Shown: piece after piece, positions 2,421 to 31,768 of the stretch
Position numbering within the stretch: the stretch's first letter is position 1
Layout: the number at the start of each line of letters is the position of its first letter
Assembly (NCBI GenBank): GCA_002780065.1
Contig: PEWQ01000120.1
Coordinates: forward strand, 1 to 36,436
DNA: 36,436 nucleotides
DNA from: Candidatus Hydrogenedentes bacterium CG07_land_8_20_14_0_80_42_17
GTDB taxonomy: Bacteria; UBA8481
Reading direction: 5' to 3'
Made by a program: the position numbers and the translations under genes
Notes under the pieces: generated by a model
What the model was told of the DNA's origin: nothing
Database searches by the model: none
Seen by the model: the letters and a program-made list of their open reading frames with translations, nothing else

Positions 2421-2472
2421 AACGTAATGCCTTAGTCTCGGGAGTAATCATTCAGCGACGCATGCTTATTTT

Positions 2473-2500
2473 GCACGCACGGGGGCGTGCGTGCCTCCAT
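2473..2500 (-). repeat. REP-like hairpin, locus A (GGAG + 9-bp stem)
   Basis: GCACGCACG (2473-2481) / CGTGCGTGC (2486-2494), loop GGGG; minus strand reads catGGAG + stem, followed by aaaataagcatgcgtcg tail. Confidence 0.75.
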
Positions 2501-2513
2501 GTGAATCAGAACT

Positions 2514-6667: not shown

Positions 6668-6748
6668 GAGTTAAAACCTCCAAATTATATGATGAAATAA
6701 TTTTATTGAATCAAAAATAAAAGACAAGGCATATTAATTTTAATTTTC

Positions 6749-6881
6749 GGAGGCACGTGAGCTACGCGTCAATGGGCGCTACGCGTCAATGGGCGCTACG
6801 CGTCAATGGACGCTACGCGTCAATGGACGCTCTCGCACGTGTTGGATAAGTTTGCATTGCAAGCACAGGCGATGGCACCTG
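6749..6881 (+). repeat. REP-like composite repeat, locus B, containing 4 tandem 17-bp units
   Basis: GGAGGCACGTGAGC, then 17-bp GCTACGCGTCAATGG(G/A)C x4 (6761-6828), then GCTCTCGCACGTG and TTGGATAAG tail, then a degenerate inverted copy (gcaagcacaggcgatggcacctg). Confidence 0.75.
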
Positions 6882-11640: not shown

Positions 11641-11754
11641 GGATAAGCATGGGTCGCAAGCAGGCGAGGGCGTCCATTGACGCGGAGCGTCCATTGACGC
11701 GGAGCGCCCATTGACGCGGAGCGCCCATTGACGCGGAGCGCCTGTGCCTCCATG
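11641..11754 (-). repeat. REP-like composite repeat, locus C, containing 4 tandem 17-bp units
   Basis: CAGGCG (11661-11666) / CGCCTG (11739-11744) flank 4 x 17-bp GCG(T/C)CCATTGACGCGGA (11670-11737); minus-strand head catGGAGgcacaggcg. Confidence 0.75.
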
Positions 11755-11832
11755 ACGAGTTATAATATTTGAAAGTGCAAATTGGAAAGTGCAAATTGAA
11801 AATTTTATTTTTCCAATTTTCATTTTGCAATT
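11755..11832. repeat. AT-rich hairpin repeat, copy 1
   Basis: AAATTGGAAA (11779-11788) / TTTCCAATTT (11810-11819); nearly identical to 23872-23945. Confidence 0.8.
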
Positions 11833-11886: not shown

Positions 11887-11926
11887 GGAGGCATGTGCGC
11901 CTCGCACATGCAGGATAAGCATGCGT
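11887..11926 (+). repeat. REP-like hairpin, locus D
   Basis: GGAG + GCATGTGCG (11891-11899) / CGCACATGC (11903-11911), loop CCT, tail AGGATAAGCATGCGTC. Confidence 0.75.
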
Positions 11927-18335: not shown

Positions 18336-19306
18336 TTTCTTCCTATACTCCATTCGATACCGTTTCCGGATTTAACTTTTCCGATAATTCTAACAATTTC
18401 ACCGTGCGATTCCAGAAGGCTTGCGGCTCTTTCAACCGAAGATTCAGGCAGAACAAGAATCATTCCTATTCCGAGATTAAAAGTTTTCCTCATCTCTGCT
18501 TCTTCGATCTCTCCGAACTCTTGAATGAGTCTGAAGATTTCAGGAACGCTCCATGAATAACTGTCAATCTCTGCGCAAAGCCCTTTGGGAATTGCCCTGC
18601 AGAGGTTGCCCTCGATTCCTCCGCCAGTGATGTGCGCGATCGAGTGAATTTCCGTTTCAGCAATAGCATGGAGAACTGATTGAACATAAATTCTTGTCGG
18701 CGCCGCCAATAGATTTTGAATTGAGTCGGTCATTTTATCCGCCATTGCGGCGCGCGCAAGCGAATAGCCGTTGGAATGCAGACCTGACGAGCCGAGCCCT
18801 AAAAGAATATCTCCTTCTCTGACTTTGTGCGCACCGAGCCGCATTTCATCATCGACAATGCCGACTGCGAATCCGGCAAGATCGTAATCGCCTTCAGTGT
18901 AAATGCCGGGCATCTCGGCGGTTTCTCCTCCGAGCAGGCGGCAGTTTGAAATTTTGCAACCCGCAACGATGCCTTTTATTATCCTCTCGATTTTATTCGG
19001 ATCAATTTTTCCGGCCGCAATATAATCGAGGAAAAAGAGCGGCTTTGCTCCGGAGCAGAGCACATCATTCACATTCATTGCAACAAGATCAATACCGATG
19101 GTATCGACCAAATCCGCATCGAGCGCAATGCGGATTTTGGTGCCTACACCGTCGGCTCCGGCAACAAGAAGCGGCTTTTTGCATCCGGAAAGTTCGAGCG
19201 GAAAAAATCCGCCGAAATCTCCGATCTCAGGGACAATCTTCTTTATTCGGCTTACGACTTCATCTCCGCGTTCGATGCTCACTCCGCTCTTTTCATACGT
19301 AAGCAT
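18332..19306 (-). CDS. purM: Phosphoribosylformylglycinamidine cyclo-ligase
   Basis: KPLLVAGADGVGTKIRIA...GIDLVAMNVNDVLCSGAKPLFFLDY...GLHSNGYSLAR...HITGGGIEGN. Confidence 0.97.
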   Translation of the reverse strand: MLTYEKSGVSIERGDEVVSRIKKIVPEIGDFGGFFPLELSGCKKPLLVAGADGVGTKIRIALDADLVDTIGIDLVAMNVNDVLCSGAKPLFFLDYIAAGKIDPNKIERIIKGIVAGCKISNCRLLGGETAEMPGIYTEGDYDLAGFAVGIVDDEMRLGAHKVREGDILLGLGSSGLHSNGYSLARAAMADKMTDSIQNLLAAPTRIYVQSVLHAIAETEIHSIAHITGGGIEGNLCRAIPKGLCAEIDSYSWSVPEIFRLIQEFGEIEEAEMRKTFNLGIGMILVLPESSVERAASLLESHGEIVRIIGKVKSGNGIEWSIGRK

Positions 19307-20790
19307 TATTCATCATCCTCCCTTCGTGCATCAATTTTGCTTTCATCAGAAAACTCTACTGGATAGTTTCCGTCCATACATGCGGTGCAGTAGGAGCAAT
19401 TGCCTGTTATATCGAAGAGATCCTGAACCGAAAGAAATTCGAGCGAATTCACTCCGATCTCTTTTTTCATTTTATCAACTGTCAGGTTGTGAGCTATGAG
19501 CTGATCAATTGAAGGAGTATCGATTCCGTATCTGCACGGATGCGTCCAGGGCGGGCAGATGATGCGCATGTGGACTTCTTTTGCTCCGGCTTTTTTGATG
19601 AGTCTGACTATTTTTTTGCTTGTAGTTCCCCGTACGATTGAATCGTCGACGAGAACAACTCGTTTGCCTTTTAGGGTCGAAGCGACAGGGTTATATTTTA
19701 TTCTTGCTCCGAAATCTCTAATCTTCTGATCAGGCTCAATGAAAGTTCTCCCGATGTAATGAGATCGTATCAGCCCGAATGAAAATGGCAGTCCGGCTTT
19801 TTTTGCATAACCGAGCGCTGACGCGTTTGAGGAATCCGGAACAGAGATGACAACGTCTGCGTCGGCAGGGTGAGTCTCAGCAAGTTTTTCGCCGAGCTTA
19901 ACTCGGATTTCGTGGACCGAATTTCCAAAAATGAAACTGTCCGGCCGCGAGAAATAAATAAGTTCGAAGAGGCAGAGAGATTGATGCGCCGCCGGCGCGA
20001 GGAATCTGGAACGAAGTCCGCTTTCGTCAATAAAAATAATTTCGCCAGGTTCGACTTCACGAATAAATTCCGCTCCAACTAGATCGAATGCGCATGTTTC
20101 AGATGCGGCGATCCATCCTTCTCCGAGCTTTCCCAGAATTAGCGGCCTGAATCCGTTGGGATCGCGCGCAAGAATAATTTTGTTCTCACTCATCATGACT
20201 AAAGAAAATGCGCCTTTCACTATTGAAAGCGCGGAGATAAGCGCATCTTCAAAATTGCCGACATTACGCGCAAGAAGATGAAGAAGAACCTCAGTGTCCA
20301 CGCTTGTATGAAAGATAGCGCCTGTCCGTTCGAGGTTTTTTCGAAGCTCGAGCGCGTTGACGATGTTTCCGTTGTGAGCCACTGCGAGACTTCCTCTGCG
20401 GTAAACTATCTGCAGAGGCTGACTGTTTTCTATCGATGTGCCTCCTGACGTAGAATATCTGACGTGACCTATTGCGGAGTTGCCGGGCAGAATCTGAAAG
20501 TCGCTTTCTTCTCTGAATACTTCGTTGACAAGCCCCATTCCTTTTTTTATGCAGAGACGGCTTTCGTGAGAAGTGACAATGCCGGCGCTCTCCTGCCCGC
20601 GGTGCTGAAGAGCGTATAACGCGAGATACGCAATTTTAGAGGCGGAGGGAACATTATACAAAGCGACAACTCCGCATTCGTCTTTGGGAATTACATTCTT
20701 GCATTTTCTTTTCGATCGGTAGCCGCAGGCTTTAGCCTGCGTTTTTAACGCATGCTTATTATCTTCATTTGATTGAATCATCTTCTTCAT
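19306..20790 (-). CDS. purF: Amidophosphoribosyltransferase with a 38-aa N-terminal propeptide
   Basis: CGVVALYN (catalytic Cys39), LYALQHRGQESAGI, RYSTSG, VVLVDDSIVRGTTSKKIV. Confidence 0.97.
   Translation of the reverse strand: MKKMIQSNEDNKHALKTQAKACGYRSKRKCKNVIPKDECGVVALYNVPSASKIAYLALYALQHRGQESAGIVTSHESRLCIKKGMGLVNEVFREESDFQILPGNSAIGHVRYSTSGGTSIENSQPLQIVYRRGSLAVAHNGNIVNALELRKNLERTGAIFHTSVDTEVLLHLLARNVGNFEDALISALSIVKGAFSLVMMSENKIILARDPNGFRPLILGKLGEGWIAASETCAFDLVGAEFIREVEPGEIIFIDESGLRSRFLAPAAHQSLCLFELIYFSRPDSFIFGNSVHEIRVKLGEKLAETHPADADVVISVPDSSNASALGYAKKAGLPFSFGLIRSHYIGRTFIEPDQKIRDFGARIKYNPVASTLKGKRVVLVDDSIVRGTTSKKIVRLIKKAGAKEVHMRIICPPWTHPCRYGIDTPSIDQLIAHNLTVDKMKKEIGVNSLEFLSVQDLFDITGNCSYCTACMDGNYPVEFSDESKIDARREDDE
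20719..20760. repeat. REP-like GTAG hairpin plus AACGCATGCTTATT tail, inside purF coding sequence
   Basis: GTAG (20719-20722), CGCAGGCT (20724-20731) / AGCCTGCG (20734-20741); acgcatgctta also present beside locus A hairpin (2459-2469). Confidence 0.7.
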
Positions 20791-23752: not shown

Positions 23753-23785
23753 TTTTCATTTTTCAATTATTTCGCACTTTCTCTG
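23753..23785. repeat. 33-bp direct repeat, copy 1 (duplicate of the purS 3' end)
   Basis: ttttcatttttcaattatttcgcactttctctg, identical to 23925-23957. Confidence 0.9.
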
Positions 23786-23860
23786 ACGCGTGGCGTCCAT
23801 TGACGCGTGGCGTCCATTGACGCGTGGCGTCCATTGACGCGGAGCGCCTGTGCCTCCATG
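23786..23860 (-). repeat. REP-like repeat, locus E: 17-bp tandem units with head GGAGGCACAGGCG, one arm missing
   Basis: GACGCGTGGCGTCCATT-type 17-bp units followed by gacgcggagcgcctgtgCCTCCatg; no CAGGCG arm on the left side. Confidence 0.75.
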
Positions 23861-23871
23861 ACATCTCCCGT

Positions 23872-28792: not shown

Positions 28793-31768
28793 GTGAAAGC
28801 GGAAATGATCGAAACAAACAATGCGGAACATCGTAATGCGGAACATAGTAGAGCGGGTCAAATTAAAAATTCGAAGGCTCTTAAAATTGAACGAATTTTT
28901 ACTCGAGAGGGTGAAGATGTTTACTCGATGGTTGAGTGGAATTTTAGAACTGCGGCTATTACCGATGATTCTGGGAAAGTAATATTTGAACAGAAAGATG
29001 TGTCTGCTCCGGTGACTTGGTCGGATCTGGCCGTGAATATAGTTGCATCAAAATATTTTCGCGGCTCGATTAATACTCCTGAACGTGAAAAGTCGATTCG
29101 TTCTTTAATTTCGCGCGTTGTCGAGACCATCTCTAATTGGGGCAGAAAGGGTGGATATTTCTTTTCTGAAGAAGACGCAAAGACATTTGAAGATGAATTG
29201 ACTTATATTCTCCTCTTTCAGATTGCGGCGTTCAACAGCCCGGTCTGGTTCAACGTTGGAGTCGAGCAAAAACCTCAGACTTCTGCATGCTTTATTAACT
29301 CAGTCGACGATACGATGGAATCGATATTGAATCTAACTAGAATTGAGGGAATGCTCTTCAAATACGGATCAGGGAGCGGAACGAATTATTCCTCTTTGAG
29401 GTCATCTAAAGAGAGCGTCAGAGGCGGCGGGAAAGCATCGGGACCTGTTTCGTTCATGAAAGGACTCGACGCGTTTGCCGGAGTCATCAAGTCCGGCGGA
29501 AAAACTCGACGAGCCGCAAAGATGGCGATACTTAATATTGACCATCCGGACATTATCGATTTTATTGAATGCAAATTGCATGAAGAGAAGAAGGCTCATG
29601 CGCTTATTGACGCGGGCTATGACGGATCAGTGAACGGAGAGGCATACGCTTCGGTTTTTTTCCAAAATGCGAACAATTCAGTGCGGGTTACCGACAATTT
29701 TATGGAAGAATATCTTGGCGACGGGCAGTATCAGACTCACTTTGTGACGACCGGAGATATAGCTGAAACCATGTCGGCGCGGGAAGTTATGCAGAAGATG
29801 TCGGCAGCGGCTCATGCCTGCGGAGATCCAGGAATCCAGTTTGACGACATAATCAACCGCTGGAACCCTTGCAAAAACTCAGGCAGAATTAACGCGTCGA
29901 ATCCTTGCGCCGAGTATATGTTTCTGGACAATACGGCGTGCAATCTTTCTTCGATTAATCTTTTGAAATTCCATGATCCTCTAGGAGTCATTTTCGATAT
30001 AGACAAGTTCATTCACACTGCGCAAGTCATGGTCACTGCGCAGGAAATTTTGGTTGATGAATCTTCGTATCCGACAGAAAGTATCGCCGAGAATTCGCAT
30101 AGGTATAGACCGCTCGGATTGGGCTACGCGAATTTGGGTTCTCTTCTGATGCATTTAGGCATTCCTTACGACTCTCATCAAGGCAGAGCGTGGTGCGGAG
30201 CAATCACTACGTTACTTACCGGAACCGCTTACATGCAGTCATCTGTTATTGCCTCTGCAATGGGGGCATTTGATGCGTATGAGGAGAACAGGGAATCATT
30301 CATCAATGTAATAAGAATGCATCGAGATGAAATCGAGCGTATCGATATTTCATCCGAGACTGCGGAGCGAGCGGAAAAACTTTTTGATATTGTCGCAAAA
30401 GCCAGATCGGTTTGGGACAGCGCGTTGGAAAACGGAGCTCGATGCGGCTTCAGGAACGCTCAGGCAACAGTTCTAGCGCCGACAGGCACGATCGCTTTCA
30501 TGATGGATTGCGATACTACGGGAATCGAGCCGGACATTGCTCTGATAAAATACAAAAAACTTTCAGGTGGAGGAACAATCAAGATCGCCAATAACAGTGT
30601 TCGGCCTTCGCTGAAACGACTCGGATATTCTGAAGATGAAATCAGAACGATACTTGCGTATCTTGACGAGCACGAAACAATTGAAGGCGCGCCTTATTTG
30701 AAAGACTGCGACCTTCAGGTTTTCGACTGCGCGTTCAGACCTTCTGCCGGACGTAGATTTATTGCTCCGATGGGACATCTCCGAATGATGTCTGCGGCTC
30801 AGCCGTTTCTTTCCGGCGCAATTTCTAAAACAGTGAATATGCCTAATGATGCGACTATCAAGGATATTGAGGAAGCGTTTGTATCGGCTTGGAAACTCGG
30901 TCTGAAAGCAGTTGCGGTTTATAGAGACGGCTGTAAACGAGCTCAACCATTGTCGACCGGCGCTGCGAAAGAAAAACAGAATGCTGCTCAATTAATTTCA
31001 CAGAGGCCTTTACGAAAGAGATTGCCGGCGGAACGAAGATCGATTACTCATCGATTTGATATACAGGGTTTCGAGGCTTACATAACTGTCGGAATGTACG
31101 ACGATGGAACTCCGGGCGAGATTTTTCTCAAAATGTCCAAAGAGGGAAGTACCTTCTCGGGGCTCACAGATACGATTGCGACCTTGACTTCGATTGCGCT
31201 TCAATACGGAGTGCCGCTCTCTGCGCTTGTTAGAAAGTTTAGCCATGTCCGTTTCGAACCGTCCGGATTTACGAATAACCATGAAATACCTATGGCAAAG
31301 TCCATCGTAGATTATTGTTTCCGCTGGCTTGCGTCGAAATTTCTTTCAGAAGAAGAACGTCATTCGCTCGGGATTTTGGATCGAAGAACATCTCTACCTC
31401 AAAAGGAAGAAAAAAAATCGTCCGACTGCTCTGATAATAACTGTTGTGATGAATCGCATTGCACTGAGACTCAACGAGCCGAGACTCAACGAGCCGAGAC
31501 TCAACGAGCCGAGACTCAACAAGCCGCGGATCAACAAGCCGAGACTCAACGAGCCGAGACTCAACAAGCCGCGGATCAACAAGCCGCGGATCAACAAGCC
31601 GAGACTCAACGAGCCGCGGCTTTTAATTTGGAAACGGAAACAAATCAGGCGAAGACATTTCAGAATCAGTCTGATGCTCCGTTCTGCCCTTATTGCGGCT
31701 CGGTAATGATTAGGAACGCGAGCTGTTATCTCTGCTTGACCTGCGGAACTTCGAATGGCTGTTCATGA
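28793..31768 (+). CDS. nrdJ: Adenosylcobalamin-dependent (class II) ribonucleotide reductase, GTG start
   Basis: FNSPVWFNVGVEQKPQTSACFINSVDDTMESI...KYGSGSGTNYSSLRS...NPCAEYMFLDNTACNLSSINL...ATVLAPTGTIAFMMDCDTTGIEPD; C-terminal zinc ribbon CPYCGSVMIRNASCYLCLTCG. Confidence 0.97.
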   Translation: MKAEMIETNNAEHRNAEHSRAGQIKNSKALKIERIFTREGEDVYSMVEWNFRTAAITDDSGKVIFEQKDVSAPVTWSDLAVNIVASKYFRGSINTPEREKSIRSLISRVVETISNWGRKGGYFFSEEDAKTFEDELTYILLFQIAAFNSPVWFNVGVEQKPQTSACFINSVDDTMESILNLTRIEGMLFKYGSGSGTNYSSLRSSKESVRGGGKASGPVSFMKGLDAFAGVIKSGGKTRRAAKMAILNIDHPDIIDFIECKLHEEKKAHALIDAGYDGSVNGEAYASVFFQNANNSVRVTDNFMEEYLGDGQYQTHFVTTGDIAETMSAREVMQKMSAAAHACGDPGIQFDDIINRWNPCKNSGRINASNPCAEYMFLDNTACNLSSINLLKFHDPLGVIFDIDKFIHTAQVMVTAQEILVDESSYPTESIAENSHRYRPLGLGYANLGSLLMHLGIPYDSHQGRAWCGAITTLLTGTAYMQSSVIASAMGAFDAYEENRESFINVIRMHRDEIERIDISSETAERAEKLFDIVAKARSVWDSALENGARCGFRNAQATVLAPTGTIAFMMDCDTTGIEPDIALIKYKKLSGGGTIKIANNSVRPSLKRLGYSEDEIRTILAYLDEHETIEGAPYLKDCDLQVFDCAFRPSAGRRFIAPMGHLRMMSAAQPFLSGAISKTVNMPNDATIKDIEEAFVSAWKLGLKAVAVYRDGCKRAQPLSTGAAKEKQNAAQLISQRPLRKRLPAERRSITHRFDIQGFEAYITVGMYDDGTPGEIFLKMSKEGSTFSGLTDTIATLTSIALQYGVPLSALVRKFSHVRFEPSGFTNNHEIPMAKSIVDYCFRWLASKFLSEEERHSLGILDRRTSLPQKEEKKSSDCSDNNCCDESHCTETQRAETQRAETQRAETQQAADQQAETQRAETQQAADQQAADQQAETQRAAAFNLETETNQAKTFQNQSDAPFCPYCGSVMIRNASCYLCLTCGTSNGCS
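31466..31615 (+). repeat. 15-bp in-frame tandem repeat, 10 units, encoding (ETQRA/ETQQA/ADQQA)10
   Basis: gagactcaac(g/a)agcc and gcggatcaacaagcc units counted by eye. Confidence 0.95.

Follow-up and report, generated by a model that had tools for sequence, protein, structure and literature searches.

How does a palindromic repeat come to persist inside the first codons of purF? REPs are defined as extragenic, and copies found at the N termini of genes are mostly blamed on wrong start codons. The question is raised by the window analyzed here, a stretch of 36,436 nucleotides (contig PEWQ01000120.1, assembly GCA_002780065.1) from Candidatus Hydrogenedentes bacterium CG07_land_8_20_14_0_80_42_17, in which a GTAG-tagged palindrome lies between the start of purF and the codon for its catalytic Cys39 (Table 1). 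We consider it likely that a REP was inserted in frame into the purF propeptide and is discarded on maturation, making the insertion nearly neutral.

Table 1. Positions of the purF features and related repeats (window coordinates unless a locus is given; ↓, cut; G000, the window's own genome; G001, a relative from the same order)
Feature	Position	Strand	Basis
purF CDS, 494-aa precursor, amidophosphoribosyltransferase	19306..20790	-	TIGR01134 match; PDB 1gph alignment
Propeptide-coding region, 38 aa (35 aa if start is ATG 20781)	20677..20790	-	In-frame start codons
Cys39 codon, predicted N-terminal nucleophile of mature PurF	20674..20676	-	TIGR01134, 1gph, start-codon survey
ATGA overlap, purL stop and purF start	20787..20790	-	GTGA at same overlap in G001
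REP proper, GTAG-C-CGCAGGCT-TT-AGCCTGCG (GTAG 20719-20722, C, arms 20724-20731 and 20734-20741, 2-nt center)	20719..20741	+	
Repeat-derived stretch: TTCGATC flank, GTAG REP, spacer, AACGCATGCTTATT tail	20711..20760	+	Alignment of 47 genome copies; tail copies
AACGCATGCTTATT, junction piece of GTAG/GGAG composite; complement contains AATAAGCATGCGT	20747..20760	+	
Full GGAG-type repeat (GGAGGCACGCACGCCCCCGTGCGTGCAAAATAAGCATGCGTC), tail common with purF element	2457..2504	-	
GspJ-like pseudopilin with REP in leader	L079 (G000:C204:12334-13116); REP L079:1501-1525		N_methyl and gspJ matches
O-antigen-ligase-like membrane protein with in-frame REP and second partial unit	L097 (G000:C83:1804-3000)		Wzy_C match
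Putative lipoprotein; REP supplies possible ATG and n-region of signal peptide	L101 (G000:C150:10545-11051)		MVAAGFSLSKLRTIIVTVIFLFISAC↓AQNN; start uncertain

The purF element as a member of a dispersed REP family

The preliminary description had recognized in the element a GTAG plus palindrome typical of REPs, and searches of the genome to which the window belongs (87% complete, with 2.39 Mb in 207 contigs) show that it is a real member of such a family. The element has a GTAG tag at its 5' end, and an imperfect palindrome of the 20- to 40-bp type comes next. Its 16-base core, GCAGGCTNNAGCCTGC, has 14 exact copies in the whole genome; allowing one mismatch raises the count to 35, and the reversed pattern has none. 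The 25-nt unit GGTAGCC..GCGT (GGTAGCCGCAGGCTTNAGCCTGCGT) occurs exactly seven times, including the copy in purF, and 39 times with at most three mismatches over its 24 specified bases, against zero for the reversed-pattern control; most of these 39 copies are intergenic. Uniqueness of the palindrome in the genome, which had been named in advance as refuting, is ruled out by this count. A relaxed search with half-units (at most two mismatches) gave 63 matches versus 3 in the controls. Alignment of 47 copies, one of them shortened by a run of N, yielded the consensus TTcgAAc-GGTAGCCGCAGGCTTTAGCCTGCGT-t...Aa...at, corresponding to a unit of about TTCGAAC-GGTAGCCGCAGGCTTTAGCCTGCGTT. No copy was found in G001, the sole same-order relative compared, and 2 of 58 more distant genomes had the REP at one or two places each.

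At three loci of the genome (L073, L082, and L083), a short GCAATGC-like junction connects the REP to an oppositely oriented GGAG-type hairpin behind it, forming composite dimers; a similar junction is present at L075. In the purF copy, the REP is preserved together with its left flank (TTCGATC) and the AACGCATGCTTATT junction, and the GGAG hairpin itself is missing. The proposed link of this copy to the tail of the GGAG repeats is borne out within the window, where AATAAGCATGCGT is matched exactly in the GGAG repeat (2458-2470) and with one mismatch at 11914. Tandem repeats are also found in the window. Units of 17 nt (GCTACGCGTCAATGGAC and complement) lie inside GGAG hairpin repeats at 6744-6836, 11661-11756, and 23767-23862 and lengthen their loops, and a 15-nt tandem repeat at 31466-31615 codes for (E/A)(T/D)Q(R/Q)A near the C terminus of a large ORF resembling B12-dependent ribonucleotide reductases.

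The REP was presumably inserted by a Y1 (RAYT-type) transposase. Four Y1_Tnp genes are present in the genome, and none of their loci, which were scanned for GTAG/GGAG hairpins in this 87% complete assembly, is flanked by the purF-type REP. No REPtron was recognized at these loci: hairpins were found only at the fourth (L106) and are of another family. The Y1_Tnp gene there (G000:C205, ORF from about 1377) contains, within its reading frame (VGTGHRPVQIGHRPVQ...), copies of another GTAG palindrome, GTAGGGACAGGGCACCGCCCTGTCC.

Predicted removal of the REP-encoded peptide

The purF product matches TIGR01134 with 487.8 bits (model 1-432 to residues 39-477), placing model position 1 at Cys39, and residue 1 of Bacillus subtilis PurF (PDB 1gph) pairs with the same residue. 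The family model thus opens with the catalytic Cys, which lies inside the precursor, and this is the arrangement of PurFs with an autocatalytic propeptide. Next to the cut, the sequence resembles that of the family, reading PKDE↓CGVV in the window and PREE↓CGVV in both G001 and a plant enzyme (6lbp), with which the window PurF has the motif P(R/K)(E/D)E↓CGVV in common. The plant enzyme is known to mature at its Cys. A short propeptide that is removed autocatalytically to expose the Cys has been described for all eukaryotic and many microbial enzymes, and the B. subtilis enzyme has a propeptide (PMC7056826). Judging from the family, the propeptide of the window PurF is very probably cut off before Cys39.

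Read on the - strand, the repeat-derived stretch encodes about 17 residues of PurF (residues 11 to 27, NKHALKTQAKACGYRSK) and stops 11 residues short of this cut. We propose that a GTAG-type REP, representing half of a GTAG/GGAG composite, entered purF in frame shortly after the start codon, adding about 17 residues to the propeptide and leaving PKDE↓C and the enzyme body untouched. As the precursor would cut itself before the catalytic Cys, the REP-coded peptide would be discarded, and the insertion would hence be almost without effect on the mature enzyme. That the cell tolerates the REP because its peptide is removed had been suggested from the start and is probably correct, given that the mature model opens with Cys39 and that removal is known from many enzymes of the family. 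The accompanying term “domesticated” fits less well than “tolerated insertion,” since there is no sign that the repeat gained a function.

Such a function could in principle be regulatory, with either an mRNA hairpin formed by the REP or a basic, two-cysteine propeptide controlling the synthesis or maturation of PurF. The hairpin lies 30 to 70 bases past the start of the gene for the committed purine enzyme, and the propeptide is rich in basic residues and has two additional cysteines, both of which would suit this explanation. However, the 171-nt start region folds just 1.3 standard deviations better than its shuffles (z = −1.32, not significant), which led us to reject a strong regulatory structure, and the REPs adjoin many unrelated genes and are not conserved across species. 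We regard a regulatory use as unlikely and favor an insertion that is tolerated because it is discarded.

Start of purF and comparison with other PurF proteins

Discarding the peptide presupposes that the repeat is translated. Between the preceding stop and Cys39, the purF frame contains just two ATG/GTG/TTG codons, ATG 20790 and ATG 20781, which are the only two starts that the preliminary description had allowed. They lie 38 and 35 codons upstream of Cys39 and beyond the repeat, no stop interrupts the frame within the REP, and a scan found no alternative ATG, GTG, or TTG between the REP and Cys39. PurF made from any standard start would thus contain the repeat, and this layout supports translation of the repeat as part of the PurF N terminus.

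The closest PurF compared, that of G001, is 64% identical and is encoded in the same purL-purF-purM order. Its gene overlaps purL by four bases, and its propeptide has 16 residues, without the repeat segment. The conserved overlap and this repeat-free propeptide place the start codon upstream of the insertion point, which points to insertion of the REP inside the purF coding sequence rather than to a start that was shifted or misread after an intergenic insertion. The comparison of N termini called for earlier gave the same result more widely: the inserted peptide is missing from G001 and from about 54 other PurFs, whose propeptides differ. PurFs of the other genomes taken by name were all distant (31 to 53% identical). 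With orthologues that are free of the insert and a start-codon layout that would have it translated in frame inside a functional gene, the element resembles the protein-coding palindromes of the RPE type.

Propeptide length by itself proves nothing. Among about 55 PurFs, the distance from the nearest start to the catalytic Cys ranges from 1 to 31 (19 to 29 in many Leptospiraceae), and other propeptides reach 29 to 31 residues; the value of 35 for the window PurF is the largest and not far outside the range. The earlier view of propeptides as usually short (11 aa) was hence too narrow, while the 35 to 38 residues of the window remain the longest seen. Without the 17 repeat-derived residues, 18 to 21 would be left, which is well inside the range of the other PurFs.

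If purF started at a nonstandard codon (e.g., ATT) downstream of the REP, the repeat would be an untranslated part of the purL-purF spacer. This would agree with the intergenic position of most REP copies and with a published caution that N-terminal REPs may be untranslated owing to wrongly annotated starts (PMC3733652), but it conflicts with the open frame, with the lack of a standard start from the REP to Cys39, with the purL overlap kept in G001, and with a pseudopilin gene that shows the same layout and no later start (see below). We consider an untranslated REP quite improbable. A chance palindrome or an assembly artifact at the repeat is very improbable, since, even though the assembly is fragmented and short repeats can cause joins, the purL-purF-purM synteny continues through the repeat as in G001, the repeat would fit within any ordinary read, and chance is ruled out by the expectation of 0.08 palindromes of 18 nt (at most three mismatches) per window in shuffled sequence and by the zero reversed-pattern copies genome-wide. 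We thus return to an in-frame insertion that is translated with the propeptide.

Other REP copies in and near genes

REP copies were placed one by one against the predicted genes at their loci. Nearly all are intergenic, often 10 to 60 bases downstream of a gene or touching its 3' end, and three or four of more than 40 are clearly inside genes; the 63 half-unit matches contained no additional clear in-gene REP. Five further candidates were rejected because the ORF is spurious (L080), because better starts exist downstream of the REP (L092 and L099), or because the overlap is limited to the 3' end of the gene (L084 and L123). At L084 (G000:C96:45-69) and L123 (G000:C186:9561-9585), the REP provides the final residues and the stop of a glycosyltransferase-like and a UvrA-like protein, respectively, as reported for GTAG REPs elsewhere. 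At L099 (G000:C115:9025-9049), purH, a further purine gene, has its likely start about 16 bases downstream of the REP.

The three clear in-gene copies, in purF and in the genes for a GspJ-like pseudopilin and an O-antigen-ligase-like protein, share a reading frame that gives TQAKACGYR or a close variant. This frame is one of three open ones among the six, and its recurrence alone is not significant. In the pseudopilin, the REP lies between the last possible start and the prepilin cut (MVNHDYLV-TQAKACGYR-SNENSLHG↓FTLIELL), and no start codon follows it, an arrangement as in purF. The leader has 25 to 37 residues, versus nearest-start leaders of at most 17 in the other prepilins of the genome, and the GspJ of G001 (34% identical) is without the REP peptide. 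In the O-antigen-ligase-like protein, the REP occupies a loop stretch that is shorter in G001.

N-terminal peptides that are cut off hold two of the three clear in-gene REPs, or perhaps three of four if the putative lipoprotein is counted. As the genome has only about ten prepilins, such placement is unlikely under uniform placement, in what is a post hoc comparison. Most other in-gene REP insertions may have been purged, leaving survivors in removed peptides or in loops. We tentatively suggest, as a possibility that we rate below even, that REPs repeatedly find safe landing sites in cut-off peptides (the PurF propeptide, the prepilin leader, and the lipoprotein signal peptide), where cassettes such as TQAKACGYR are translated and then discarded.

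Relation to known repeats and implications

GTAG REPs, their dimers, and intragenic REPs were described in 2013 in a paper that also recalls the in-frame RPEs of Rickettsia (PMC3733652). The present family resembles GTAG REPs in its GTAG tag and imperfect 20- to 40-bp palindrome, its dozens of copies, and its opposite-orientation dimers; these REPs, too, are mostly intergenic and close to 3' ends, with some inside ORFs and some at N termini (PMC3733652). The purF copy differs in that it can hardly be explained by a miscalled start and sits in a peptide predicted to be cut off; in addition, no REP-flanked transposase gene was seen among the four Y1_Tnp loci. Joining of GTAG and GGAG repeats in opposite orientation elsewhere in the genome is reminiscent of BIMEs, whereas the purF copy retains only the GTAG half and the junction. 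The Rickettsia RPEs belong to other families, of the CGTC type or the longer RPE-1 (PMC3733652). Like the purF element, they are palindromic repeats that lie in frame in functional genes and are tolerated at permissive sites. RPEs affect many genes and are not known to prefer propeptides. With the PurFs of B. subtilis and plants, the window PurF shares a Cys that becomes N-terminal after a propeptide and the (D/E)E↓C context; its propeptide differs in having 35 to 38 residues, about 17 of them repeat derived.

In-frame REPs themselves are already known, and what is new here is a niche for REPs in cut-away peptides without an alternative start. No paper on REPs in propeptides or in the leaders of prepilins turned up in the literature searched, although such papers may exist. 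In purF, there is no other standard start, and the insert lies in a peptide that the protein would discard. If the use of cut-off peptides as safe landing places holds, REPs would test which parts of protein N termini can be dispensed with. If general, it would explain where short mobile repeats survive in genes, would make them a source of new protein sequence, and would predict further inserts in leaders and propeptides that could be counted across genomes.
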